DNA from: an uncultured Pelagibacteraceae bacterium
GTDB taxonomy: Bacteria; Pseudomonadota; Alphaproteobacteria; Pelagibacterales; Pelagibacteraceae
DNA: 54,862 nt
Direction of reading: 5' to 3'
Assembly: GCA_902583585.1 (NCBI GenBank)
Contig: CACHWN010000007.1
Span: forward strand, 1-54,862
Both the position numbers and the translations under genes were made by a program. This document shows positions 3,334-52,391 of the stretch, piece after piece (the stretch's first letter is position 1; each line of letters begins with the position of its first letter). Under the pieces are notes generated by a model. That model ran no database searches and had not been told where the DNA came from. It saw only the letters and a program-made list of their open reading frames with translations.

Positions 3334-4575
3334 ATGAATAAAATAGCAAAACTATTTGTTACATTTATTTCAGCAATAACTTTAGCACTTGTTTCTTTTA
3401 CTTCTTCTTTTGCAAAAGTAGAAGGTGAATACATTGTGTTAGGTTCTGCAATATCTCTTACAGGTAAATACTCTTCAAATGGTGTTCATACTCAAAATGG
3501 TTATAACATGGCCGTTGACAGAATTAACAAAATGGGTGGAGTAGAAGTACAAGGTAAGAAATATAAGTTTGAGATCATTTACTATGATGATGAGTCAAAC
3601 CCAAAAAGAGCCGCTCAGTTAGCTGAAAGACTAATTAAACAAGATGGCGTTCATTACATGCTTGGACCATACAGTTCAGGCTTAACAAAAGCCATTGCAC
3701 CAGTAACCGAGAAATATAAAATTCCTATGGTTGAGGCGAATGGTGCATCTAGATCTTTATTTACTAAAGGATACAAATATTTGTTTGCGGTGTTATCACC
3801 AGCTAACCAATACCTTGAAGTAGCTATCGATTTAGCGGTAGAAAAAAACGGTGGTAAAGGAGTAAAAATTGCTCAAGCATTTGAACAAGATGCTTTCTCA
3901 CAAGACGTGAGACTTGGTATTTTAGATGCAGCGAAAAGAACTGGATCTGAGATCATCATCGATGACAAACTACCAAAAGAACTTAACGATATGGCAGCTA
4001 CATTGGCTAAAGTAAAAGCTGTTAAGCCAGATGTACTCGTTGTATCAGGTCACACAAAAGGCGCATTAACTGCAATCAGACAAATTTCTGAAATGAAAGT
4101 TGATGTTCCTATGTTAGCGATGACACACTGTGATGCTGCAAAACTTTCTAAACAACACGGAAAGAAATCAGAATTCGCATTGTGTGCTTCTCAGTGGCAC
4201 AAAAATTTATCTTACAAAGATAAATTCTTTGGCTCTGGTAAGAAATACGCTAAAGACTTCCAAAAAGAATTTGGATATGACCCGCCATATCAATCAGCAG
4301 AGTCTTCTGCAGCATTGTTAGTGTTTAAAGATGCGTTCGAAAGAGCAAATTCTTTTGACAGAGATGCAGTTAGAGATGCGCTAGTTGATACAGAAATGCA
4401 AACTTTCTATGGAAACATTAAATTTGGACCTGGTGGCCAAAACGTTGCTAAGCCAATGATCTTGTTCCAAGTAAGATGTAAAGGCGATGATTGTGAGAAT
4501 AGAGTAGTAGCTCCTACAAAATGGGCTTCTGATAAGTTCTATCATCCAATCCCGAAATGGTCTGAAAGAAGCTAA
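3334..4575 (+). CDS. Branched-chain amino-acid-type ABC transporter, periplasmic binding protein
   Basis: A 413-residue periplasmic binding protein of the LivJ type (Peripla_BP_6). It has a clear signal peptide (residues 1 to about 27, ending SSFA) followed by IVLGSAISLTGKYS, the usual first strand and ligand loop of the family, and YYDDESNPKRAAQLAERL. It delivers amino acids, amides or related small molecules to the membrane permeases encoded just downstream. It has a strong ribosome-binding site (AAGAAGGGA) and its own promoter candidate, and is separated from the permease genes by an intrinsic terminator, suggesting higher expression than the rest. The ligand cannot be read from sequence; urea or short-chain amides are alternatives. 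Confidence 0.9.
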   Translation: MNKIAKLFVTFISAITLALVSFTSSFAKVEGEYIVLGSAISLTGKYSSNGVHTQNGYNMAVDRINKMGGVEVQGKKYKFEIIYYDDESNPKRAAQLAERLIKQDGVHYMLGPYSSGLTKAIAPVTEKYKIPMVEANGASRSLFTKGYKYLFAVLSPANQYLEVAIDLAVEKNGGKGVKIAQAFEQDAFSQDVRLGILDAAKRTGSEIIIDDKLPKELNDMAATLAKVKAVKPDVLVVSGHTKGALTAIRQISEMKVDVPMLAMTHCDAAKLSKQHGKKSEFALCASQWHKNLSYKDKFFGSGKKYAKDFQKEFGYDPPYQSAESSAALLVFKDAFERANSFDRDAVRDALVDTEMQTFYGNIKFGPGGQNVAKPMILFQVRCKGDDCENRVVAPTKWASDKFYHPIPKWSERS

Positions 4576-4592
4576 TAACTTCTGAATAATTT

Positions 4593-4627
4593 GAAAAGCC
4601 CCTAGTTTTCTAGGGGCTTTTCTTTTA
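4593..4627 (+). terminator. Intrinsic terminator between binding-protein and permease genes
   Basis: A perfect 13-bp stem (4593-4605 with 4610-4622) closed by a TTTT loop, with GCCCC/GGGGC in the centre and a T-rich tail running into 4627. It lies 18 bases after the binding-protein stop and ends about 16 bases before the permease ATG at 4644. Read-through would be needed to express the downstream genes unless they have a separate promoter, so it most likely sets a high binding-protein to permease ratio. Confidence 0.9.
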
Positions 4628-4643: not shown

Positions 4644-5537
4644 ATGGACTTTCTTATTTTTAAAGCTCCAATGTTAATGGTCCAGGCATCACTGGATGGA
4701 ATTCTTTTAGGCATATTATTTGCATTGATCGCGTACGGCATGGCTCTTCAATGGGGTGTGATGAATATAATCAATATTGCTCAGGGTGATCTAGTAATTC
4801 TCGGAGGTTATATTGCATACACTATCTATCTTTGGGGAATTCATCCTGCTTGGGGAGTTATCATTTCTCCCATAATAATGTTTTTCGTGGGATGGGGACT
4901 CTATAAGTTAGTAATCAATAAAGTAGTGGATAGAGACTTATTTATTTCAATTTTAGCAACTTTTGGTATCGCTATTGTATTCCAACAATTAATGAATTTT
5001 ATTTTCGGTGCAGACGTGGTCGTGGCACAGTCTGAATATGGAACAACAATGTTATTTGATAATTCAGTAACCCTACCAAATTCAAAAATATTCTCTGCTT
5101 TTATAAGTGTTTTATATGCAATAGCTCTAGTTATTTACATGAGGAAATCTAAACTTGGAAGGGCTATAAGAGCTACAGCACAAAATGCAAGAGCTGCAAA
5201 AATTCTAGGCGTGGATACAGAAAAAGTTTATGCTGCAACTTTTGGTATCAACGCTGCTTTATGTGGGATTGCGGGAGCTTTGATTTCAATCACTCTTACA
5301 CTTCATCCTTATGTGGGACTGTCTTACACAGTTAGATCTTTCATGATAGTTATTGTTGCAGGTCTAGGTAATTTACCAGCAGTAGCAGTTTCAGGAATGG
5401 GATTGGGATTATTTGAAGAGTTTGCAGATTATATTCTAGGAACAGAATTTAGAATTGGAGCAGTATTTATGCTGCTCGTTTTAATATTAGTTTACAGAAG
5501 ATTTAAACTTTCAAAGAAAAGGGAGTATTTAAAATAA
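4644..5537 (+). CDS. livH: Branched-chain amino-acid-type ABC permease, LivH-like
   Basis: A 297-residue inner-membrane permease with many hydrophobic helices and the family motif near GLRxR/ARAAKILGVDTEKVYAATF (about residues 180-200), the loop that contacts the ATPases. GxxNxxxGDLVILGGY near residues 40-55 is typical of LivH. It forms the translocation pore with the LivM homologue immediately downstream; the gap between them is zero bases. The start is close to the terminator after the binding-protein gene. Confidence 0.9.
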   Translation: MDFLIFKAPMLMVQASLDGILLGILFALIAYGMALQWGVMNIINIAQGDLVILGGYIAYTIYLWGIHPAWGVIISPIIMFFVGWGLYKLVINKVVDRDLFISILATFGIAIVFQQLMNFIFGADVVVAQSEYGTTMLFDNSVTLPNSKIFSAFISVLYAIALVIYMRKSKLGRAIRATAQNARAAKILGVDTEKVYAATFGINAALCGIAGALISITLTLHPYVGLSYTVRSFMIVIVAGLGNLPAVAVSGMGLGLFEEFADYILGTEFRIGAVFMLLVLILVYRRFKLSKKREYLK

Positions 5538-7333: not shown

Positions 7334-8118
7334 TGGCAAATCAATACGATGTTTTAGGTAAAGCACCTGGTTTAGAAGATTTAAATAAATTATCTCCTAA
7401 CGACGTTCATCTAACCATAAGAGGCCTAAATGCAGGTTATGGAAAAATGGAGATACTCCATAATTTTGATTTAACAGTCAGTAAGGCTCAATCGTTATGT
7501 TTAATAGGTCCTAACGGAGCAGGAAAATCTACAATACTTCACTCCATATACGGATTTACGAATATTTTTGATGGGAAAATTGAATTAGAGGGAAATGAAA
7601 TTACGACATTAACTCCTGCTCAGAAACTTAGTAAAGTGGGCATAGCTTATATCTTACAAGATAACTCGGTATTTCCAGATATGACTGTTGAGGAAAATCT
7701 TTTAATGGGCGGATACATCAAAGATAAACAGGACGAAGCCTATGAGGAAGCTGAGAGAATTTTTCAAAAATATGAGAGATTAAGAAATAGAAGGAATCAA
7801 CCTGCAAAAGTTTTATCAGGCGGTGAGAGAAGGTTATTAGAAATCTCAAGAGCATTAGTTATGAAGCCATCTGTTTTATTAGTAGACGAGCCATCAATAG
7901 GCTTGGAACCAAAATATATAAATATGGTTTTTGAAATTTTAGACGATCTTCAAAAAGCAGAGAAGAAAACAATAATACTTGTAGAACAAAATGCAAAAAA
8001 AGGTTTAGAGTTTGCAGATATAGGATACGTTTTAGTATCTGGCCAAACAGCTATTGCAGGTAAAGGGGATGATCTTTTAAAAAATCCAGACGTAGGAAGA
8101 TTATTCCTTGGTGGATGA
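7333..8118 (+). CDS. livF: ABC transporter ATPase, LivF-like
   Basis: A 261-residue ATPase with Walker A GPNGAGKST (about residues 58-66), the Q-loop IAYILQDNSVFPDMTVEENL, signature LSGGERRLLEI, Walker B VLLVDEPSIGL, and Gln in the switch position (LVEQNAKKG), all typical of LivF. It has roughly 25 extra residues at the N-terminus compared with the usual LivF, of unknown meaning. It overlaps azlC by 4 bases (ATGA), tying importer and exporter-like genes into one transcript. Confidence 0.93.
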   Translation: MANQYDVLGKAPGLEDLNKLSPNDVHLTIRGLNAGYGKMEILHNFDLTVSKAQSLCLIGPNGAGKSTILHSIYGFTNIFDGKIELEGNEITTLTPAQKLSKVGIAYILQDNSVFPDMTVEENLLMGGYIKDKQDEAYEEAERIFQKYERLRNRRNQPAKVLSGGERRLLEISRALVMKPSVLLVDEPSIGLEPKYINMVFEILDDLQKAEKKTIILVEQNAKKGLEFADIGYVLVSGQTAIAGKGDDLLKNPDVGRLFLGG

Positions 8119-8819
8119 TTAATTCACAAGCTTTCTTTACAGGTTTAAAATCTTTAAAAGGCGCAAGAAGTCCGGCGTTACCTTTAGCTGCTTGTTTTAT
8201 TGCTTTAGGAGCTTTACTTAAGGATGCTGGATTTAACATTCAACAAAGTGCAGCATCAAGTTTTTTTACTTATGCCTTACCAGGACAATTAGTAATGGCA
8301 GAGTCATTATTATTAGGCGCATCTATAGTAAATATTTTTTTAGCAGTATGGTTAGTTAATTTTAGACTTTATCCAATGACAGTTTCCTTATTTCCTTTAC
8401 TTGAGCACAAATCCCAACCTAAGTGGAAATATTATTTGTCTTGTCATTTTCTTGCAGTTTCATCGTGGTTAATTGCTAAAGACACTTACAAAAAGATTAA
8501 TGCCAAATATAGAATAGATTTTTGGATAGGTATTGGCACGGGAACTTGGTTAACAGCTGTTCTAATGACAGTTATTGGTTACCTAGCAGCAGATCTCTTA
8601 AATAAAGAAATGTTAATTGGATTGGCAATTGTAAATCCAATTTATTTTTTTTGTATGATGATAGGCGCCATGAAAAACATAGCCATATCTATTTCGGTAA
8701 TTTTAGGAACAACTTTAGGACCAGTTATTTATTTGTTTTCTACTGAGTGGTCATTATTATTTGCTGGATTGATAGCAGGCACTATTGCTTATTTATTTGG
8801 AGAAAAAGATGGTAAGTAG
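8115..8819 (+). CDS. azlC: AzlC-family branched-chain amino-acid permease subunit
   Basis: A 234-residue membrane protein with seven or so hydrophobic segments and the AzlC features LPLAACFIALGALLKDAGF near the N-terminus, LPGQLVMAESLLLGAS, and NFRLYPMTVSLFPLL. With AzlD it forms a two-component exporter (BrnFE/YgaZH family) usually linked to branched-chain amino acids or methionine. It follows livF with a 4-base overlap, so import and export genes share an operon. Confidence 0.88.
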   Translation: MINSQAFFTGLKSLKGARSPALPLAACFIALGALLKDAGFNIQQSAASSFFTYALPGQLVMAESLLLGASIVNIFLAVWLVNFRLYPMTVSLFPLLEHKSQPKWKYYLSCHFLAVSSWLIAKDTYKKINAKYRIDFWIGIGTGTWLTAVLMTVIGYLAADLLNKEMLIGLAIVNPIYFFCMMIGAMKNIAISISVILGTTLGPVIYLFSTEWSLLFAGLIAGTIAYLFGEKDGK

Positions 8820-9135
8820 TCAAATTATAATTTTTGCTATTATAGCAACTTCAATTGCTACATATATATCTAGATTCATGGGAGCACTTACTTCAGAAAA
8901 AGTTAGTGTGAAATCAAAAATATTTAAATGGTTTAATTGTGTTGCTTATTCAACTTTGGCCGCATTACTTGGAAGAATGATAATATTTCCTGCTGGAGTT
9001 TTAGCTGAGTCAGAGCTTACAATTAGACTAATAGTATTCCTCACTTGCATTGCAATATTTATAATATCTAAAAAAAACTTAGTAATACCTACGGTCACTT
9101 CTGCAATTTTATTAAGCTTTTTGACTAACATTTGA
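8809..9135 (+). CDS. azlD: AzlD-family small permease subunit
   Basis: A 108-residue protein from the ATG at 8809 (MVSSQII), with four hydrophobic segments and the TYISRFMGAL motif near residues 16-25 that is usual for AzlD. A longer frame from 8785 would add eight residues that merely read through azlC. The chosen start gives an 11-base overlap with azlC. It is the small partner of the AzlC exporter. Confidence 0.85.
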   Translation: MVSSQIIIFAIIATSIATYISRFMGALTSEKVSVKSKIFKWFNCVAYSTLAALLGRMIIFPAGVLAESELTIRLIVFLTCIAIFIISKKNLVIPTVTSAILLSFLTNI

Positions 9136-9154
9136 TTTATGGTAAAATTAAAAA

Positions 9155-9211
9155 ATGGAACCAATACTAGCAATTTTTATTGTTTTGTGGATTATGGGCA
9201 CTATTGAGTAA
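9155..9211 (+). CDS. Possible 18-residue hydrophobic leader peptide before glaH
   Basis: An ATG at 9155 opens an 18-codon frame, MEPILAIFIVLWIMGTIE, whose TAA (9209-9211) directly abuts the ATG of glaH at 9212. The peptide is one short hydrophobic helix, so it could be a membrane micropeptide or only a coupling leader. In AT-rich DNA, frames this short also arise by chance. A second out-of-frame ATG at 9139 opens a 22-codon frame over the same bases, which lowers confidence. Confidence 0.25.
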   Translation: MEPILAIFIVLWIMGTIE

Positions 9212-10108
9212 ATGAGCTTTTCATTATCACATCATAATAATTCTAAGAGAGTTCGAGTAATTAAGTTAAACGAAAGTGATCTTGATAGGTTGATTTTTCC
9301 TTTTAAAAAACATTCAATTTTATCTTTAGAATACAAACCATTTTCTAGATTTAGCTTGGCAAAAAGCTTGGATGAAGTATTTCAAAATAAACTGAGCAAA
9401 ACCTTAAGTGAAATTCTTAATGATCGAGAAACCGGGACCGCTATAGTTGAGCCTGATATTAAAAATAAGAAATTTGACAAAGATTTTTTAGTCAAGCTTT
9501 CAACAGGTCTTGCTTATCTAATTGGCAATCCTAACTTTGACTCAATGACAGGTAAATACTATGCAAGATTTTATGTAAAGCATCAAGATAGTAGCGATTC
9601 TTATCTTAGAAAAGCCTATACAAATTTAGATCTTCATACGGATGGAACATATGTAAAAGAAAAAACTGATTGGATTATAATGACAAAAATGGAAGAACAA
9701 AATGTCGGTGGAGGAGAAAGTGTAATTTTACATTTAGATGATTGGGAACATCTGGAAGATTTAAGTAATGATCCTGTGGGTCAAGAAGATTTTGTATGGG
9801 GATCACCAAAAAGCAAGAATGTTGATTATAAAGTCGAACATCCAGTATTTTCAAAAGATAAAAATGGTAAGCCAGTTATTTCATATATTGATCAATTTCC
9901 TGAACCAAAAAACATGAAACAAGGTTTATTTTTGCAAAAATTATCAGATGCTTTAGAACAAAGTAAAAATAAAATAAGCTTTCCACTACCTGTGGGGTCG
10001 ACAATTTTCTCTAATAACTATTTTTGGTTGCATGGAAGAAAAGCTTTTAAAGAGCATTCTGGGTTATCAAGAGAATTACTTAGAATTAGAGGAACTTTTT
10101 TTCATTAA
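9212..10108 (+). CDS. glaH: Glutarate 2-hydroxylase, CsiD/GlaH family
   Basis: A 298-residue Fe(II)/2-oxoglutarate oxygenase. The metal triad is visible as H142-T-D144 in LHTDGTYV and H274 in WLHGRKAF, with a 2OG-binding Arg in the C-terminal RELLRIRG segment. GGGESVILHLDDWE and the YYARFYVK stretch are diagnostic of CsiD. The E. coli enzyme, about 325 residues, converts glutarate to L-2-hydroxyglutarate with succinate and CO2 release. The usual partner lhgO is not in this window. It lies just upstream of a tripartite carboxylate transporter, which suggests, but does not prove, that the transporter brings in glutarate or a related diacid. Confidence 0.85.
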   Translation: MSFSLSHHNNSKRVRVIKLNESDLDRLIFPFKKHSILSLEYKPFSRFSLAKSLDEVFQNKLSKTLSEILNDRETGTAIVEPDIKNKKFDKDFLVKLSTGLAYLIGNPNFDSMTGKYYARFYVKHQDSSDSYLRKAYTNLDLHTDGTYVKEKTDWIIMTKMEEQNVGGGESVILHLDDWEHLEDLSNDPVGQEDFVWGSPKSKNVDYKVEHPVFSKDKNGKPVISYIDQFPEPKNMKQGLFLQKLSDALEQSKNKISFPLPVGSTIFSNNYFWLHGRKAFKEHSGLSRELLRIRGTFFH

Positions 10109-10115
10109 TACTCAG

Positions 10116-10144
10116 TTGACTCTAGATTAGTTATTTATTTAAAT
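10116..10144 (+). promoter_or_regulatory. Candidate promoter for tctC
   Basis: TTGACT at 10116-10121 is followed after 17 bases by TTAAAT (10139-10144); a TATAAA-like run at 10144-10149 is an alternative -10. The tctC ribosome-binding site, AGGGGG, stands just before the ATG at 10175. A separate promoter here would allow tctC to be expressed independently of glaH. The -10 element is weak. Confidence 0.35.
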
Positions 10145-10174
10145 ATAAATAATTAATAAACACAGGGGGAAATA

Positions 10175-11167
10175 ATGTTCAATAAGTTCAAAAAACTTAT
10201 CAGCCTAGTTTTCGCAACTGTTCTTTTAACTTCAGTCTCAAACATATCTTTCGCTGCTGACAAATTACACTTCGTAATTGGTGGTGGTGCTGGTGGTGGT
10301 TGGGATGGAACTGCTAGAGGAACTGGTGAAGCTTTAACTAAAGCTGGTTTTTTAAATAGTGCATCATTTGAAAATATGTCAGGTGGTGGTGGAGGAAAAG
10401 CTTTATCATACATGATAAATACTAAACCTTCAGATACGATTTTAGTTCAATCTACTCCATTAGTTCTTAGATCAATAACTAGACACTCTGGTTATGTAGA
10501 TAAAAAGAACGCAGCAAAGGTTACATCTTATAAAGATGTAGTGCCAATAGCTGGTGTAATAGGTGACTACGGCGCAATTGTTGCTGCAAAAAATTCACCA
10601 TACAATTCTTGGAAAGATGTAGTAGCTGCTTACAAAGCAAATCCAAAGTCAGTAAAAATGGCTGGTGGATCTGTTAGAGGAAGTATGGACCATTTGATTG
10701 GCGCATTAGCATTTAAAGAAGCTGGTGCTAATCCAAATGATGTTGTTTACATTCCTTACGATGCAGGTGGTAAAGCATTAGCAGGATTATTGTCAGGAGA
10801 AACTCAAATTCTTTCAACTGGTTTGGGAGAAGTAATGGGTGCTAGAGATCAAGTAAAAATTCTTGGTATCACAGCGCCTAAAAGAGTTGCTGACGCTCCA
10901 GATGTTCCAACTTTAAAAGAGCAAGGTACTAACGCAATCTTCGTAAATTGGAGAGGTTTCTTTGGCCCTCCAGGTATGAGCGATGGTGAGAGAAAGAAAA
11001 TTGCAAAAATGTTGGGCGATGTTCAAAAAACACCTGAATGGGAAGCAGTCAGAAAAAGAAATGCTTGGGTAAATATTTACAACCCAGATAAAAAATTCGT
11101 TAAATTTTTAGAAAAACAAACAGTCGAGATGACTGGATTGTTAAAAAATTTAGGCGTAATTAAATAA
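10175..11167 (+). CDS. tctC: Tripartite tricarboxylate transporter substrate-binding protein (TctC/Bug)
   Basis: A 330-residue periplasmic protein with signal peptide (cleavage near ISFAADK, residues 24-27) and the Bug-family opening LHFVIGGGAGGGWDGTARG, which contributes to the ligand pocket, and later VYIPYDAGGKALAGLL. The family binds citrate, other carboxylates, amino acids or aromatic acids. It is the extracytoplasmic receptor of a TTT system with TctB and TctA downstream. A strong ribosome-binding site and a hairpin after the gene suggest it is made in excess over the membrane subunits. The neighbouring GlaH makes C5 diacids a reasonable guess for the ligand. Confidence 0.9.
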   Translation: MFNKFKKLISLVFATVLLTSVSNISFAADKLHFVIGGGAGGGWDGTARGTGEALTKAGFLNSASFENMSGGGGGKALSYMINTKPSDTILVQSTPLVLRSITRHSGYVDKKNAAKVTSYKDVVPIAGVIGDYGAIVAAKNSPYNSWKDVVAAYKANPKSVKMAGGSVRGSMDHLIGALAFKEAGANPNDVVYIPYDAGGKALAGLLSGETQILSTGLGEVMGARDQVKILGITAPKRVADAPDVPTLKEQGTNAIFVNWRGFFGPPGMSDGERKKIAKMLGDVQKTPEWEAVRKRNAWVNIYNPDKKFVKFLEKQTVEMTGLLKNLGVIK

Positions 11168-11173
11168 ATAGTT

Positions 11174-11227
11174 AAGGAAAGAGCAGTGAAAATAAGTCCT
11201 TCAAAGATTATTTCACTGCTCTTTTTT
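11174..11227 (+). terminator. Terminator-like hairpin overlapping the tctB ribosome-binding site and start codon
   Basis: A perfect 14-bp inverted repeat, 11178-11191 with 11211-11224, followed by a T run to 11227. Allowing one bulged A the stem extends inward by three more pairs, and outward through two G-U pairs. The left arm holds the GTG start of tctB (11186-11188) and most of its AAGGAAAG ribosome-binding site; the right arm encodes the first membrane helix of TctB. Formation would both end transcription after tctC and hide the start site. Confidence 0.82.
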
Positions 11228-11656
11228 ATTTTTTCTGGTTTTTATCTTTATACAGCGCATCAAATTCAAGTTTTTACTTTTGATGAGAATGCTGCATTCA
11301 ATGCAAAAACGTTTCCAATTTACTTAGGCTATGCAGGTTTAATATTTTCAGCGCTTTATATTATTTTACCAGAAACAAAACCTTCAAATGTAGATTTAAC
11401 AGTTCTAGATTATAAAAAAACAATCACGTTGGTTATACTTATGATTTTGTATGGACTAACAATTTTAAGAGTAGGATATTTTCTATCAACTTCAATTTTT
11501 TTAGTTCTATCTTACATTGTTTTAGGTGAAAGGAAGTGGTTATGGATATTTCTTTTATCATTTCCTTTTGTAGCGATATTTATGTATCTCTTACATGGAC
11601 TATTAAATATTTATCTTCGTGACCCATTTTTACAATTAATTGGAGTTATGGGATGA
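11186..11656 (+). CDS. tctB: Tripartite tricarboxylate transporter small membrane subunit TctB
   Basis: A 156-residue protein with four hydrophobic segments, matching the TctB four-helix topology and size. The FDENAAFNAKTFPIYLG segment after helix 1 corresponds to the conserved loop of the family. The GTG start is fixed by the AAGGAAAG sequence 5 bases upstream and because the first helix begins about ten codons later. The start lies within a strong hairpin (11174-11227), so translation is probably limited or coupled to upstream events. It overlaps tctA by 4 bases (ATGA). Confidence 0.85.
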   Translation: MKISPSKIISLLFFIFSGFYLYTAHQIQVFTFDENAAFNAKTFPIYLGYAGLIFSALYIILPETKPSNVDLTVLDYKKTITLVILMILYGLTILRVGYFLSTSIFLVLSYIVLGERKWLWIFLLSFPFVAIFMYLLHGLLNIYLRDPFLQLIGVMG

Positions 11657-13152
11657 TAGAAGGAATACTCATCGGATTAGAAACAGCTTTTTCATTAAAA
11701 AATTTAATGATGGTTATGATTGGTTGTTTTGCTGGAACAATAATCGGAATGCTACCAGGTTTAGGACCAATGACTGCAATAGCATTAATGATTCCTATTA
11801 CTTACGGCTTCGAACCGTCAACAGGTTTAATTTTAATGGCAGGCGTTTATTATGGCGCAGTTTTTGGAGGATCCACATCTTCAATTTTGATTAATGCACC
11901 TGGAATACCAGGGACAGTAGCAACTTCATTTGATGGGTATCCAATGGCACAACAAGGAAAAGCTGGTAAGGCACTAGCAATAGCAGCTTATAGTTCTTTC
12001 GCAGGCGGGACGATCGCAGCTATATTTCTTTTGATCGCAGCACCAAGTTTATCAAAAGTTAGTTTAGCGTTTAGGTCCCCAGACTATTTTGGTTTAATGA
12101 TTTTAGGCTTAACTGCAGTATCAGCATTTTCAGCTAAAGGCCACTTTTTAAAAGCGATGATGATGGTAGTACTTGGATTAATGCTAGCAAGTGTTGGCCA
12201 AGATACTCTCTCAGATATTCCAAGATTTACATTTCAAAATATGAATTTGTCAGATGGTATAAGCTTTGTTTTAGTAGTAATGGCAACTTTTGCGATGAGC
12301 GAGGCTTTAACTATAATCTTTAAAGCAAACGATCCAACAAGAGTGGCTAAACAAATTTCATTATCTCAACTTGGCTCAATTAAATTAGATAAGACAGAGA
12401 CAAAAAAGATGGTGACCACCATTCCTCGTTCGTCAGTCCTAGGTTTTATCATTGGAGTTCTTCCTGGCGCGGGTTCAACAATAGCATCTTTTTTAGCATA
12501 TGGAATGGAGAGAAATTTTGTAAATGATGAGGAAAAGCAAAAATTTGGAAAAGGAAGTGTGAATGGATTAGCTGCACCAGAAACAGCCAATAATGCAGCA
12601 TGCTCTGGATCTTTTGTTCCCTTGCTTACGTTAGGTATACCTGGCAGTGGAACAACAGCAGTGATGCTTGGAGCATTACTTGGTTTTGGAATTCAACCTG
12701 GACCTAGATTGTATCAAACAAACCCTGAAATTTTTTGGTCAGTTATAATGTCGATGTATATTGGAATGGTAATACTTTTAATTCTAAATCTTCCTTTAAT
12801 ACCTTATATTGCAAGAGTTTTAGCTACACCTAGAACATTTTTAATTCCCTTAATTTTATTTTTTTCAGTTACGGGAATTTATCTGATGTCATTTAATAAT
12901 TTCGATATTTACATGATGATTGGAATAGCAGTAGTTGCAACTATACTACGTTTATATGATTTTCCCATGCCGCCATTAATTCTTGCTTTTGTCCTAGGAG
13001 GGTTAATGGAAGAGAATTTAAGGAGATCTCTATTAATTAGTGATGGATCATGGACATTTCTTTGGGATAGACCATTAACAATGATAATAATGCTGACTAT
13101 TTTATTTATAGTAGGATGGCAAATATATAAAAGTTTTTTTAAAAAACTATAA
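11653..13152 (+). CDS. tctA: Tripartite tricarboxylate transporter large membrane subunit TctA
   Basis: A 499-residue polytopic permease, the normal TctA length. GxxxGMLPGLGPMTAIALMIP near residue 35 and VLPGAGSTIASFLAYGMER near residue 275 are the two repeated family motifs, and GVYYGAVFGGSTSSILINAPG and LLTLGIPGSGTTAVMLGAL are further TctA signatures. With TctB it moves substrate handed over by TctC, driven by an ion gradient. The gene end overlaps the convergent doxX-like gene by 6 bases. Confidence 0.92.
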   Translation: MIEGILIGLETAFSLKNLMMVMIGCFAGTIIGMLPGLGPMTAIALMIPITYGFEPSTGLILMAGVYYGAVFGGSTSSILINAPGIPGTVATSFDGYPMAQQGKAGKALAIAAYSSFAGGTIAAIFLLIAAPSLSKVSLAFRSPDYFGLMILGLTAVSAFSAKGHFLKAMMMVVLGLMLASVGQDTLSDIPRFTFQNMNLSDGISFVLVVMATFAMSEALTIIFKANDPTRVAKQISLSQLGSIKLDKTETKKMVTTIPRSSVLGFIIGVLPGAGSTIASFLAYGMERNFVNDEEKQKFGKGSVNGLAAPETANNAACSGSFVPLLTLGIPGSGTTAVMLGALLGFGIQPGPRLYQTNPEIFWSVIMSMYIGMVILLILNLPLIPYIARVLATPRTFLIPLILFFSVTGIYLMSFNNFDIYMMIGIAVVATILRLYDFPMPPLILAFVLGGLMEENLRRSLLISDGSWTFLWDRPLTMIIMLTILFIVGWQIYKSFFKKL

Positions 13153-13533
13153 CCTAACGTATTTTTTTTCTTTATCTACAGCCCAGTCTTTTGTTCCGTT
13201 TGCAACAATAAATAAAAACCCACCCGCTAATCCAATATTTTTGAGAAAAGATACTAACTGTGATTGATTTGCAAAATCAAAGTGAAAAAGAAAAGCAGTC
13301 ATTAAGCAGAAAACTGCAAGAACTCCCGCAGCTATTCTTGCCTGATAACCTACTATAACAAGAACAGGTAAAATAATTTCAACAGCTATTGCAGGATATA
13401 TTAAAAAACCAGGTACCCCGTATCCTTCCATCCAGCCTATAGACCCATCTAAATTAAAAATTTTATTAAAGGCAGAAATTAAAAACAATGCCGAAATAAA
13501 AATTCTACCAACTAAATCTAAAACATTTGCCAT
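13147..13533 (-). CDS. DoxX-family small membrane protein
   Basis: A 128-residue protein with four hydrophobic segments and the DoxX-type start GRIFISALFLISAFNKI, then a Gly-rich second helix (IYPAIAVEIILPVLVIVG). The family is broad and membrane-bound, in some cases linked to quinol or thiosulfate metabolism, but no specific role can be assigned here. It converges on tctA with a 6-base overlap and has about 50 bases of AT-rich spacer from the next minus-strand gene upstream of it. Confidence 0.75.
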   Translation of the reverse strand: MANVLDLVGRIFISALFLISAFNKIFNLDGSIGWMEGYGVPGFLIYPAIAVEIILPVLVIVGYQARIAAGVLAVFCLMTAFLFHFDFANQSQLVSFLKNIGLAGGFLFIVANGTKDWAVDKEKKYVRL

Positions 13534-13585
13534 AAGAAAAAATTAGATCGAATAAAGGTCAATGTCAAAAAATAGATAGTTTAAT

Positions 13586-14659
13586 TCAGGTTTTTCTCAA
13601 AAACCTTAATATTAAGGGTACAATAAATAATATCATTAGTAAGCGAATGATATGATGAAAAGACACAAACTCTGGATCGAGATTAAAAAAAATGGCAATC
13701 ACAGCTACCTCATAAATACCCCCAGGACAATAGGAAAGTAATAAAGTAAAAAAATTTTTGTCGATTATTAAACTTGCAGCAAAAGCTGCTATCACCCCTA
13801 AGAACACAAGTAAGAAAGTTGCAATAAAACTGTGAAACGCATTTTTTGCAACTTCATTAAATGTTTTATCTGCAAACCTACAACCCACTGATGCTCCTAA
13901 TATTAAAAGACAGTAATCTACAATTTTTGGAGATATTTGATAAGAAGCAATTTCAGTTATTTGAAGAAAACCACTAGCTACTAAAGTTCCAGACAATAAA
14001 GCAGCCGGTACTTTGAGTCTGTCAAATATCATAATGAAAATAATTGAAAGAATAATTAAAATAAAAAGATTTGAGATATCTTGATTTTTCAAAGTCTCTT
14101 GTACAAACTCCCCTAGGTCAGCATCGTAATAGCTATTAACAAAAAAAGGAAAGACCGTTACAATTATTATAAGTCGAATTAAATGAGCAGTTGCTACATG
14201 ACTCAAATCAGTTTTTTGATCTTCAGCTAAAATCATAAGAGGCCCCAAAGCTCCTGGTGCAGCAGAAAAAATAGAAGTTTTTTTCTCATATTTAGAAAAT
14301 TTTTGTAAATAAATTGACACAATAAAAATACTTAAAATTATGTAAATTAACATAATCAAAGAGGTCAACACCCATTCATGGATTTGAGAGAAAAGATCTT
14401 TATCAATATAGTTCCCTATATAGAGTCCTAACAAAATTAATATCGAGGACAAAACAATTCTAGGTATTTTAATTTTCAAACCCATCAAAGCACCAACTGA
14501 AGTAGCTAGCATTGGGCCCAAAAACCACGCTAAAGGTAATTTAATATAATCGGCTATAATTGCACTAGGTATCGATATAGCTATTACTAGAACAAATTTG
14601 ACAGAAAAGATTTGCTTAAAATTATCTTTATTAAATGGAATAGCTTGGTTATTCTGCAT
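13586..14659 (-). CDS. AbrB-family (PF05145) membrane transporter
   Basis: A 357-residue polytopic protein with two homologous halves, typical of the AbrB/AmoA-duplication family: LPLAWFLGPMLATSVGALMG near the N-terminus and LKVPAALLSGTLVASGFLQ in the second half. APGALGPLMILAEDQ and SYCPGGIYEVAVIAIFFN are the paired Pro-Gly loops. The family is annotated as putative ammonia monooxygenase-linked or as a carboxylate/regulator permease, without firm biochemistry. Its start codon is only 5 bases from the divergent proC start. Confidence 0.8.
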   Translation of the reverse strand: MQNNQAIPFNKDNFKQIFSVKFVLVIAISIPSAIIADYIKLPLAWFLGPMLATSVGALMGLKIKIPRIVLSSILILLGLYIGNYIDKDLFSQIHEWVLTSLIMLIYIILSIFIVSIYLQKFSKYEKKTSIFSAAPGALGPLMILAEDQKTDLSHVATAHLIRLIIIVTVFPFFVNSYYDADLGEFVQETLKNQDISNLFILIILSIIFIMIFDRLKVPAALLSGTLVASGFLQITEIASYQISPKIVDYCLLILGASVGCRFADKTFNEVAKNAFHSFIATFLLVFLGVIAAFAASLIIDKNFFTLLLSYCPGGIYEVAVIAIFFNLDPEFVSFHHIIRLLMILFIVPLILRFLRKT

Positions 14660-49618: not shown

Positions 49619-50911
49619 ATGAAAAAATACTTAGGATACTTTCTAGCAGGTACAGCCATTTACTTTGGCTTTGCTGGTCTTGGATATGCTGAGACTACAG
49701 TGTCTGCAGAAGTACAATACATTTTTAATACCCTATTATTTTTAATGTCGGGTTTCTTGGTCATGTGGATGGCCGCAGGTTTCGCAATGTTAGAGTCAGG
49801 ATTAGTAACATCAAAATCTGTATCAGCAATCTGTGCTAAAAATATAGGTTTATATTCAATCGCCGGAGTTATGTTCTGGTTGGTTGGTTACAATTTAGCT
49901 TACGGTATCCCAGAAGGCGGATATATAGGTTCATTCACACCATGGAGTGACAATTCATCATTAGAAACAGGATATTCTGATGGTTCCGATTGGTTTTTCC
50001 AAATGGTGTTTTGCGCCACTACAATGTCAATTGTGTCTGGTACATTAGCTGAAAGAATTAAGATCTGGCCATTTTTCTTATTTGCCGCAATTTTAACTGG
50101 AATTATCTATCCAATTTCTATGGGTTGGCAGTGGGGTGGCGGATGGTTATCGGTAGCTGGATTCTCAGACTTTGCTGGTTCAACATTAGTACACGCTGCT
50201 GGAGGAGCTGCGGCTCTTGCAGGTGCGATCGTATTAGGTGCTAGAAGTGGCAGATTCTCAGGAAAAGGAGAGGCTAAACCGATGGCACCATTTGCTGCAT
50301 CATCAATTCCGTTAGCAACATTAGGAGTATTTATACTTTGGTTAGGTTGGTTCGGATTTAATGGTGGATCTCAGTTAGCTTCTGGAACGCTAGAAGACGT
50401 TTCAGCAGTTGCAACAATTTATATCAATACGAACTTAGCTGCAGGTGGCGGTGTATTAGCTGCTGCAACAGTATCTAGAGTGATTGGTGGAAAAACTGAC
50501 GTTGTAATGATGCTAAACGGCGCAATTGCTGGATTAGTAGGTATTACCGCAGAACCATTAACACCAAGTCCGTTAGCTGCAATATTCATTGGAGCAATAG
50601 CAGGAGTATTAATGTACTTCTCAACAAAACTATTGTTCAAAATGAAAATTGATGACGTAGTTGGAGCCATCCCAGCACACTTAGTAGCTGGAGTATGGGG
50701 TACATTAGCAGTACCATTAACAAATGGAGATGTTACTTTCGGAGCACAATTCTTAGGAACTATCTCAGTTGTGGTATTCGTATTCATAGTCTCGTTTATT
50801 GTTTTCCAAATTATCAAAAGTACAATTGGATTAAGAATAAGCAAGGAAGCTGAAAGACTAGGAACTGACAAAGCAGAAGTCGGTGTAATAGCTTACGGTA
50901 TTAGAGACTAA
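49619..50911 (+). CDS. amtB: Ammonium transporter, copy 1
   Basis: A 430-residue Amt protein with signal peptide (ending GLGYAET, residue 25). GGWLSVAGFSDFAGSTLVHAAGGAAALAG includes the first pore His, DDVVGAIPAHLVAGVWGTLAVPL the second, and GWQWGGGWLS and FNGGSQLASG are pore segments. It moves ammonium into the cell. The next gene is a close paralogue. No glnK lies next to it. The C-terminal tail (ISKEAERLGTDKAEVGV) is conserved in both copies and could contact GlnK. Ribosome-binding site AAGGGAG precedes the ATG. Confidence 0.95.
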   Translation: MKKYLGYFLAGTAIYFGFAGLGYAETTVSAEVQYIFNTLLFLMSGFLVMWMAAGFAMLESGLVTSKSVSAICAKNIGLYSIAGVMFWLVGYNLAYGIPEGGYIGSFTPWSDNSSLETGYSDGSDWFFQMVFCATTMSIVSGTLAERIKIWPFFLFAAILTGIIYPISMGWQWGGGWLSVAGFSDFAGSTLVHAAGGAAALAGAIVLGARSGRFSGKGEAKPMAPFAASSIPLATLGVFILWLGWFGFNGGSQLASGTLEDVSAVATIYINTNLAAGGGVLAAATVSRVIGGKTDVVMMLNGAIAGLVGITAEPLTPSPLAAIFIGAIAGVLMYFSTKLLFKMKIDDVVGAIPAHLVAGVWGTLAVPLTNGDVTFGAQFLGTISVVVFVFIVSFIVFQIIKSTIGLRISKEAERLGTDKAEVGVIAYGIRD

Positions 50912-50945
50912 TTAAAATTCCCTCCCTCGTTAGTTGGGAAAAATT

Positions 50946-50987
50946 ATAAGGCCTGGTCGGTTCCCCCGTCCAGGCCTTATTTGTTTT
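50946..50987 (+). terminator. Intrinsic terminator between the two amt genes
   Basis: An 11-bp stem, ATAAGGCCTGG (50946-50956) with CCAGGCCTTAT (50970-50980), a 13-base loop and a TTGTTTT tail. It ends the first amt transcript and makes independent control of the second copy likely. Confidence 0.85.
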
Positions 50988-51064
50988 ACAAAGCTCGTAT
51001 GCATTAAATTCATGCTTCAAACCTCTGAAATTTGATATCAAGTCTTCAAAAAAAAGGGGGAAAC

Positions 51065-52354
51065 ATGAAAAAATTAACTTTCATTTTATTAGGTTGTATT
51101 TCTGCTCTACTAATTAGCTCTCAAAGCTTTGCAGAAACTACAATGTCTCAAGAAGGACAATATATTTTTAACTCTTTAGGGTTTTATTTAGGTGGAGTGC
51201 TAGTGGCTTTCATGGCAGCAGGTTTCTGTATGCTTGAGAGTGGATTAGTGACTACAAAAAGCGTATCGACAATTGCCGCGAAAAATATAGGTAAATTCGC
51301 TATATGTTCACTGATATTTTTCTTAGTAGGTTATAATTTGGCTTATGGCGTGCCAGAGGGAGGCTACGTGGGCTCATTTACGATTTGGACAGATTCATCT
51401 GACGCTGAAACAGGTTATTCAGGTTACTCAGACTGGTTCTTTCAAACTATGTTCGTATGCGCGACAGCTTCTATAGTGTCAGGAGCAGTTGCAGAGAGAA
51501 TTAAGATCTGGCCATTCTTTATTTTTGCAGCAATTATGGCAGGAGTAATTTATCCAATTTCTATGGGTTGGCAATGGGGAGGCGGCTGGTTAGCTACTGG
51601 CGGATTCTCAGATTTTGCTGGTTCAACTTTAGTTCATGGTTGTGGGGGTGCAGCAGCACTTGCAGGAGTTATAGTTTTAGGTGCTCGTGAAGGCAGATTT
51701 GGAAGAAAAGGTGAAAAGAAGTCTATGCAACCATTTGCGGCATCTAGTATTCCACTTGTTACACTTGGAACTTTTTTACTTTGGTTTGGATGGTTTGGAT
51801 TTAACGGTTTCAGTCAATTAGCAATGGGAACTTTTGATGATGTAAATGCAATTTCAAAAATTGCAGTAAACACACATTTAGCCGGTGCAGCTGGAACCTT
51901 CACTGGAGCAGCTATCACAAGATTAATTGGTGGTAAAACCGATATTGTGATGATGCTTAATGGTGCATTAGCTGGCCTAGTAGCGATAACTGCGGAACCT
52001 TTAACTCCAGGACCAATAGCAGCAATGTTCATTGGATCGATTGGAGCGATCATAATGTATTTTGGAACTAAAATGTTAGAAAGTTATGGTTTAGATGATG
52101 TAGTTGGAGCTATTCCAGTACACATGTTCGCTGGTATATTTGGAACACTTGTGGTTCCACTAACTAATCCAGACACATCCTTTGGAACTCAATTTATAGG
52201 TACAGCATCTGTATGTATATTTAGCTTTGCATTATCTTGGGCAACTTTTACTGCTCTCAAATCAACAATTGGTTTAAGAATAAGTAAAGCTGCCGAAAAA
52301 TTAGGAACAGATAAAGCTGAAGTAGGCGTAACAGCTTACTCAATTAGAGATTAA
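51065..52354 (+). CDS. amtB: Ammonium transporter, copy 2
   Basis: A 429-residue Amt protein starting at the ATG at 51065 (MKKLTFILLG) after an AAAGGGGG ribosome-binding site; a TTG at 51032 opens a longer frame but is implausible. It has its own signal peptide (to SFAETT, residue 24), the pore His segments GSTLVHGCGGAAALAG and DDVVGAIPVHMFAGIFGTL, and the same C-terminal tail type. It differs from copy 1 in the first pore region (FVCATASIVSG against FCATTMSIVSG). Two copies suggest different affinity or a sensor role for one. Confidence 0.95.
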   Translation: MKKLTFILLGCISALLISSQSFAETTMSQEGQYIFNSLGFYLGGVLVAFMAAGFCMLESGLVTTKSVSTIAAKNIGKFAICSLIFFLVGYNLAYGVPEGGYVGSFTIWTDSSDAETGYSGYSDWFFQTMFVCATASIVSGAVAERIKIWPFFIFAAIMAGVIYPISMGWQWGGGWLATGGFSDFAGSTLVHGCGGAAALAGVIVLGAREGRFGRKGEKKSMQPFAASSIPLVTLGTFLLWFGWFGFNGFSQLAMGTFDDVNAISKIAVNTHLAGAAGTFTGAAITRLIGGKTDIVMMLNGALAGLVAITAEPLTPGPIAAMFIGSIGAIIMYFGTKMLESYGLDDVVGAIPVHMFAGIFGTLVVPLTNPDTSFGTQFIGTASVCIFSFALSWATFTALKSTIGLRISKAAEKLGTDKAEVGVTAYSIRD

Positions 52355-52364
52355 ATTTTTTGAT

Positions 52365-52391
52365 AAAAAGCCCGAGAAATCGGGCTTTTTT
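52365..52391. terminator. Bidirectional intrinsic terminator after amt copy 2
   Basis: An 11-bp stem, AAAAAGCCCGA (52365-52375) with TCGGGCTTTTT (52380-52390), a GAAA tetraloop and T/A runs on both sides. It ends the amt transcript and, in the other orientation, the converging glycosyltransferase-like gene whose stop lies at its edge. Confidence 0.92.

Follow-up and report, generated by a model that had tools for sequence, protein, structure and literature searches.

The window, i.e. the whole stretch of 54,862 nucleotides that was analysed, contains a tctCBA operon of the TTT type in which tctC, encoding the solute-binding protein, is the first gene and is followed by the genes of the small (tctB) and large (tctA) membrane subunits (Table 1). 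The gaps are 18 nt between tctC and tctB, instead of the 19 bases from stop to GTG given in the original prediction, and -4 nt between tctB and tctA; according to Pfam and these gaps, the binding-protein gene lies ahead of its membrane subunits in one predicted operon. Among the named genomes, the TctC relatives with 95-100% identity belong to Pelagibacteraceae, i.e. SAR11, a group of very abundant ocean bacteria. The gene upstream of tctC is csiD, which we take to belong to the glutarate 2-hydroxylase family, and the TTT system here may carry glutarate. The csiD gene was also found upstream of tctC in 54 of the 68 named loci with full 3-kb flanks.

Table 1. Genes and hairpin elements of the tctCBA region and the second hairpin example in the window.
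Feature	Position	Strand	Basis
csiD	9212-10108	+	ORF, Pfam
tctC, TTT solute-binding protein, first gene of tctCBA	10175-11167	+	ORF; Pfam TctC PF03401, E 2e-18
tctC stop TAA	11165-11167	+	sequence
Shine-Dalgarno-like site of tctB, AAGGAAAG	11174-11181	+	sequence; partly in left arm; pairs with the T run in the RNA fold
Hairpin left arm, GTG start within (11186-11188)	11178-11191	+	sequence, fold, covariation in 73 distinct junctions
tctB, small membrane subunit, GTG start within hairpin	11186-11656	+	Pfam TctB PF07331, E 9.8e-15
Loop, from tctB codon 3 into codon 9 (first base)	11192-11210	+	alignment columns 22-26/39-43
Hairpin right arm, tctB codons 9-13; Leu11-Leu12 as CTG-CTC at 11216-11221	11211-11224	+	codon counts
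U-rich tail TTTTTTATTTTTT, encodes part of FFIF	11222-11234	+	sequence
tctA, large membrane subunit	11653-13152	+	Pfam TctA, E 2.3e-149
Second window example, terminator-like hairpin, -23.2 kcal/mol	4593-4622	+	between LivK-type binding-protein gene 3334-4575 and permease gene 4644-5537

The tctC-tctB junction shows a hairpin that had been described as a perfect 14-bp stem placed inside tctB and followed by a T run, and all of this holds: the two arms are fully complementary, the left one contains the GTG and part of the Shine-Dalgarno site, the right one corresponds to tctB codons 9-13, and T residues occupy 11222-11227 and, after one A, 11229-11234. Part of this T run is expected from Phe codons. 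Past a 1-nt bulge, the inner pairs 11191-11195/11208-11212 are mostly kept and two of the five covary, and in the RNA fold the stem extends through the Shine-Dalgarno site, to which the T run contributes G-U and A-U pairs. The fold of 11150-11240 has an energy of -23.8 kcal/mol, compared to -12.8 ± 2.7 in shuffles (z -4.1, equalled in 0 of 200), and when tctB codons 2-25 were recoded synonymously behind the same leader, the observed energy was reached in 21 of 20000 random versions. Both the Shine-Dalgarno site and the start codon are paired, as in structures that sequester the ribosome-binding site, and the unpaired probability of the tctB start (0.078) is the lowest of the 59 window starts, which were picked mechanically and have a median of 0.458. 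As in an intrinsic terminator, a GC-containing stem of 14 bp is followed by a U-tract; the loop, of 19 nt or 12 nt with the inner pairs, is outside the short range of 3-8 nt, and a simple terminator scan for loops of 3-8 nt listed 16 sites without the tctB hairpin among them. This long loop is a mark against strong termination at the window hairpin. When 8000-14000 was scanned with E values up to 1, the hairpin at 11174-11227 gave two overlapping Rfam matches (E 0.41 and 0.97), both below threshold, and none at a gathering score. The whole window was scanned at gathering scores, and its sole match is a glycine riboswitch (RF00504, 26727-26809, 66.4 bits).

Within the window, six of the 59 ORFs show such a hairpin behind them. 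Pfam was run on 13 of the 59, and both binding-protein genes among these 13, tctC and the LivK-type gene, belong to the six. Tandem ammonium transporter genes (49619-52354) also show a strong hairpin (-25.1) in their 120-nt gap, which is not a binding-protein case, and a terminator-like hairpin readable from both strands is found between convergent genes at 52354-52390.

TctC has matches in 121 of the 169 genus genomes and in 223 of 397 genomes drawn from the family, and junctions were read from part of these matches: 30 loci of the genus, including that of the window, and 80 named loci kept of 453. Further junctions came from 20 stretches and from four close relatives among 30 loci, giving a total of 134 loci whose TctC is over 70% identical; some of them stand for one genome that occurs both named and unnamed. 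After removal of duplicates, 102 tctB genes (101 of them free of N) and, with N-containing ones left out, 73 junctions of 64 nt remain. In all 134 orthologous loci, tctB has 156 codons and starts with GTG at the same stem position. The 20-pair structure, with the Shine-Dalgarno pairs and the one-base bulge, is kept in 93.2% of the 1460 base-pair cells of the 73 junctions, compared to 43-64% in slid controls, and RNAalifold predicted nearly the same helix with 18 pairs. In a shuffle control that is inflated by the relatedness of the sequences, two-sided changes (56 cells versus 10.8 ± 2.9) and the pairs that carry them (five versus 2.2 ± 0.4) were each reached in 0 of 500 shuffles, while further pair types in the window-type family were not beyond the shuffles (14 versus 13.4, 211 of 500). 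The Shine-Dalgarno base and the third base of Phe13 appear as GC in 25 junctions, GU in 19, AU in 18 and unpaired in 11; the third bases of codon 2 and Ile9 as AU in 34, UA in 13, GC in 9 and unpaired in 17; and those of Ile3 and Ile8 as AU in 47, UA in 13, UG in 1 and unpaired in 12. The outermost pair is unpaired in 29 of the 73 junctions. The U-rich tail has at least seven T in ten positions in every one of the 73.

Codon choice in the right arm is also held. Leu11 is CTG in 101 of 101 distinct tctB genes and Leu12 is CTC in 100 of 101; in the remaining one, L093, CTC is replaced by CTT and the matching base on the opposite arm is changed. These are the two rarest Leu codons, with 1.4% (CTG) and 3.2% (CTC) of Leu elsewhere in tctB and 1.8% and 3.3% among the 1701 Leu codons of the window. 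Of 17 conserved Leu columns, Leu11 and Leu12 show a diversity of 0.00 and 0.03 of that expected and the other 15 range between 0.51 and 1.15; among 80 columns tested, only Gly156, at the tctA overlap, is equally invariant. The comparison across SAR11 relatives that the original prediction had proposed shows what it anticipated, in that stem bases covary and the pairing persists without loss of the TctB residues, and the hairpin at 11174-11227 is a real RNA element under selection. Nine of the ten genus-4 loci lack GGA in the left arm yet retain the core stem and the T run, so burial of the Shine-Dalgarno site is not the constant element. Among distant TctC loci (24-34% identity), a junction hairpin was seen by eye in 15 of 16, the exception being L137, and ten further loci gave no match in the same script as these 16. 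Several relatives, among them L111, L116 and L122, show a small TCC...GGA hairpin directly past the tctC stop and before the main hairpin.

A second TctC family was represented by 47 loci with at least 75% identity to the query, of which 31 distinct sequences were used for covariation. Its terminator-like hairpin lies within tctB codons ~8-18, has loops of 4-8 nt (mostly 4-7) and in most cases precedes a run of eight or nine T. Pairing is kept in 98.6% of 279 cells, with 17 two-sided cells (2.5 ± 1.4 in shuffles, 0 of 500) in five pairs (2.1 ± 1.1, 7 of 500), and further pair types were not beyond the shuffles in this family (467 of 500). In this family the arms compensate through amino acid changes, as in RANKSLP, RANKSRSP, GTNKSLS, GTKSNSS and KGRFNSA. 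Furthermore, all 28 distinct sequences contain another short hairpin around the ATG, for which shuffles expect 54%, and this start-enclosing hairpin is a weak lead. The third TctB group (10 loci, 30-39%) shows a long coding hairpin with a weak or absent U-tract, the T runs behind it having at most five T, and one further locus, L312, shows an intergenic hairpin. The tctB frame is open from the first ATG in 55 of 58 loci (not in L277, L302 and L312), and none of the loci listed contains an in-frame ATG between the hairpin and codon 36. L277 and L302, from genomes of the second TctC family, have broken tctB frames, by a shift in an A-run ahead of the hairpin and by a stop after codon 84, respectively, which are either real or assembly errors. 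In five tested members of the second and third groups, Pfam TctB begins at residues 24-28, compared to residue 8 in the window type, as if the tctB start had moved upstream over the hairpin.

The occurrence of hairpins past other binding-protein genes was analysed in five single-contig SAR11 genomes with six binding-protein families. Of 89 loci, 14 were dropped as duplicates or for having no same-strand ORF within 100 nt, and 75 were used, three of which (L222, L235 and L237) are matches under the family cut-off. Each junction was scored by the best 48-nt hairpin within 100 nt past the stop, and the controls were 234 further co-directional junctions, taken from 400 kb of these genomes. A hairpin of -12 kcal/mol or lower was found at 70 of the 75 binding-protein junctions and 16 of the 234 controls, and one of -16 kcal/mol or lower at 69 and five, respectively. 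Separated by gap length, the counts are 1/1 versus 10/158 for gaps of -30 to 4 nt, 14/19 versus 1/52 for 5-40 nt and 55/55 versus 5/24 for 41-100 nt. Orthologues across the five genomes are not independent; when collapsed at 40% identity they form 34 clusters, 32 of which have the hairpin. The z value is -2.5 or lower at 71 of the 75 junctions. Because pairing of the A-U tract hides U residues, the U-tract was counted from the GC core, and at least five U in the 8 nt past it were found in 59 of 75, compared to a background of 13.6%, or 17.8% over the 100 nt after these stops. Pfam was run on 30 of the 75 next genes, and 26 of them encode membrane or ATPase subunits of transporters; L164 and L198 match other families, and L192 and L234 have no Pfam match. 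Five of the 75 binding-protein junctions lack a strong hairpin. L186-L189, four loci that belong to one SBP_bac_3 cluster, show only a weak hairpin (median -11.3), and the GTG of their next gene lies within a AAGTGAAAA / TTTTTACTTTT-like stem.

By automatic placement, the hairpin is purely intergenic in 41 of 64 junctions of the five non-TctC families, and 10 of the 11 TctC hairpins are placed on the ribosome-binding site or start of the gene that follows, or within its coding sequence. One of these 10, L213, touches the start through its outer pairs only, and the intergenic case, L222, precedes tctA. The TTT hairpin is mostly across or inside the tctB start because tctB begins so close to tctC.

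Outside SAR11, a class sample of 190 genomes gave 66 with TctC, from which 30 loci were fetched and 26 placed, 13 of them with a TctB-like next gene; ten of these 13 were tested with Pfam and all ten are TctB. In this sample, which is small and made up of the best-scoring TctC genes, mostly from GC-rich genomes, a hairpin with z of -2.5 or lower was found at two of the 13 tctC-tctB junctions and at five of the 13 remaining loci, so the pattern does not extend to tctC-tctB junctions of Alphaproteobacteria in general.

The reading that we consider probable is that a leaky terminator or 3'-end barrier past tctC keeps the binding protein above the permease and, at this locus, also buries the tctB start. 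The selected RNA hairpin would mark the 3' end of the binding-protein message, both by intrinsic termination that is leaky and by hindering 3'-5' decay, and more RNA would end past tctC than run on into tctBA, with TctC exceeding the membrane subunits. In the operon of the window, with the Shine-Dalgarno site and the GTG buried, initiation at tctB on the read-through RNA is probably lowered. Termination or stabilisation, an excess of binding protein and reduced tctB initiation are all inferred from the sequence. The anatomy is compatible with the double role of a 3' end after tctC and a buried tctB start, and the recurrence past binding-protein genes in five SAR11 genomes is compatible with an excess of binding protein. 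What recurs is a strong hairpin shortly past the stop of the binding-protein gene, usually with a U-tract, at varying positions with respect to the following start, and this suits the leaky terminator and 3'-end barrier.

Some of the same observations could be accounted for without termination, by a hairpin that shields the tctC message from 3'-5' exonucleases once the unstable tctBA part has been degraded, as in the SRPS operons described in Clostridium (PMC8219983). Sixteen of the 75 binding-protein hairpins have fewer than five U in the 8 nt past the GC core and the hairpins of the third TctB group have a weak U-tract or none, so termination is perhaps not the whole story, and these cases suggest that the hairpin itself matters. 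Stabilisation alone, however, would have no need of the U-tracts at the other 59 junctions (background 13.6%), nor of the T-rich tail of every window-type junction, which Phe codons explain in part, and we give it a modest chance. A brake on translation only, with the ribosome-binding site and start of tctB buried and transcription unhindered, would suit a start that is the least accessible in the window and a GTG that is invariant and paired. It appears improbable in view of the genus-4 loci that keep core stem and T run in the absence of GGA, of the second and third TctB groups, where the main hairpin is downstream of the start codon, and of the purely intergenic hairpins that prevail in the other five families. 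The position of the hairpin near both the tctC stop and the tctB start, together with the ATG-enclosing hairpin of the second family, would also suit a regulated attenuator, in which a ribosome finishing tctC or starting tctB decides the folding and the output of the transporter answers a signal. The original prediction had suggested control by the ribosome finishing tctC, and this part finds no backing, as the stop-to-GTG gap varies between 17 and 34 nt across loci while the hairpin stays; at 18 nt, the footprint of a terminating ribosome would reach the outermost pairs only. With this variable gap, with no Rfam family at gathering score at the hairpin, and with no alternative fold, ligand or leader peptide noticed in the course of the analyses described here, we regard the regulated attenuator as quite improbable. 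A related form, specific to the TTT operons, is an attenuator embedded in the coding sequence, in which the first tctB codons are the terminator and are melted by ribosomes that load at tctB or arrive from tctC; the TctB N-terminus would be its own leader peptide and transcription of the permease genes would depend on permease translation. The arrangement, which occurs in three TctB groups, could then have emerged repeatedly through shifts of the tctB start upstream across the hairpin. We hold this form to be unlikely.

A DNA site for a dimeric protein could explain a perfect 14-bp inverted repeat with constant spacer length in the 73 aligned junctions. This chance is very slight, and the reading was rejected, on account of the frequent G-U pairs (alignment pair 11-53 with 18 GU, 18-46 with 18 UG and 16-48 with 8 GU), which a DNA site does not need; the arms at other binding-protein genes also look unrelated in sequence. 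Since G-U pairs are tolerated alongside covariation, an RNA element rather than a DNA element is indicated. The segment KIISLLFF is a conserved membrane segment, and the stem might in principle arise by chance or as a by-product of TctB protein conservation. This can scarcely be entertained and was also rejected: synonymous recoding rarely gives an equal fold, the rare Leu codons are held, shuffles did not reach the two-sided changes, and in the second family the stem persists through amino acid changes.

Hairpins in comparable positions are known from the malE-malF REP and the pufBA-pufLMX operon, which follow a gene whose product is needed in excess; these are intercistronic, while the window hairpin lies inside the next gene. 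The closest likeness to the leaky terminator or barrier proposed here is found in cellulolytic Clostridia, where internal terminators past the binding-protein genes of ABC importer operons were shown experimentally (Wu et al. 2022, PMC9045158), and according to the discussion of that paper E. coli has at least 15 stem-loops downstream of binding-protein genes. The two systems share the order of genes, with the binding-protein gene first, the stem-loop right after it and the membrane genes downstream, as well as a long stem and a U-tract partly paired with 5' sequence. The clostridial stem-loops are intergenic and belong to ABC operons; in contrast, the SAR11 hairpin belongs to a TTT operon, reaches from the ribosome-binding site of tctB over its start into its first codons and holds codon choice for the stem. 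The window junction has a stable stem-loop downstream of the binding-protein gene, but it is not intergenic, its left arm holding part of the Shine-Dalgarno site and the GTG and its right arm tctB codons 9-13, so it is a variant and not a member of the type of Wu et al. The ratio within SRPS operons depends on a stem-loop that lies at the 3' end of a selected gene (Bhaskar et al. 2021, PMC8219983); this position is shared by the window hairpin, although the SRPS stem-loops are described as acting through the processing and stability of the RNA. Naville and Gautheret (2010, PMC2965389) report for E. coli 18 candidate attenuators less than 15 nt from a start codon, three of them annotated as sequestering the ribosome-binding site. 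As in those, one hairpin could serve both termination and a block of translation; unlike those, as they are described, the window hairpin follows a binding-protein gene within an operon, and one of its arms is coding sequence. Smith et al. (2010, PMC2864753) report inductions under iron limitation of 16.0-fold for sfuC, 10.4-fold for sfuB and 5.0-fold for sfuA, an order that is suggestive only, as these are inductions and not levels. The available text of Meyer et al. (2009, PMC2704228) contains no word beginning with tct, that of PMC5069961 contains nothing on the point, and the top-ranked matches listed from the open-licence PMC literature include no report of such a junction for tct genes or for SAR11. 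A hairpin past the binding-protein gene is already known from Clostridia as a means of setting stoichiometry. Among the matches listed, neither a hairpin embedded in the start and coding sequence of its downstream neighbour, with rare codons held and compensating amino acid changes, nor its frequent use in TTT, TRAP and ABC operons of SAR11 is described, and the embedding and the use in TTT and TRAP operons look like a variation not reported before.

A hairpin past nearly every binding-protein gene examined in five genomes would be a simple and testable answer to the question of how bacteria with streamlined genomes keep binding protein in excess of permease. In the TTT cases, the RNA structure constrains the codons of the next protein and, in one family, its amino acids, and the embedded hairpin bears on the annotation of start sites and on codon-based tests of selection.
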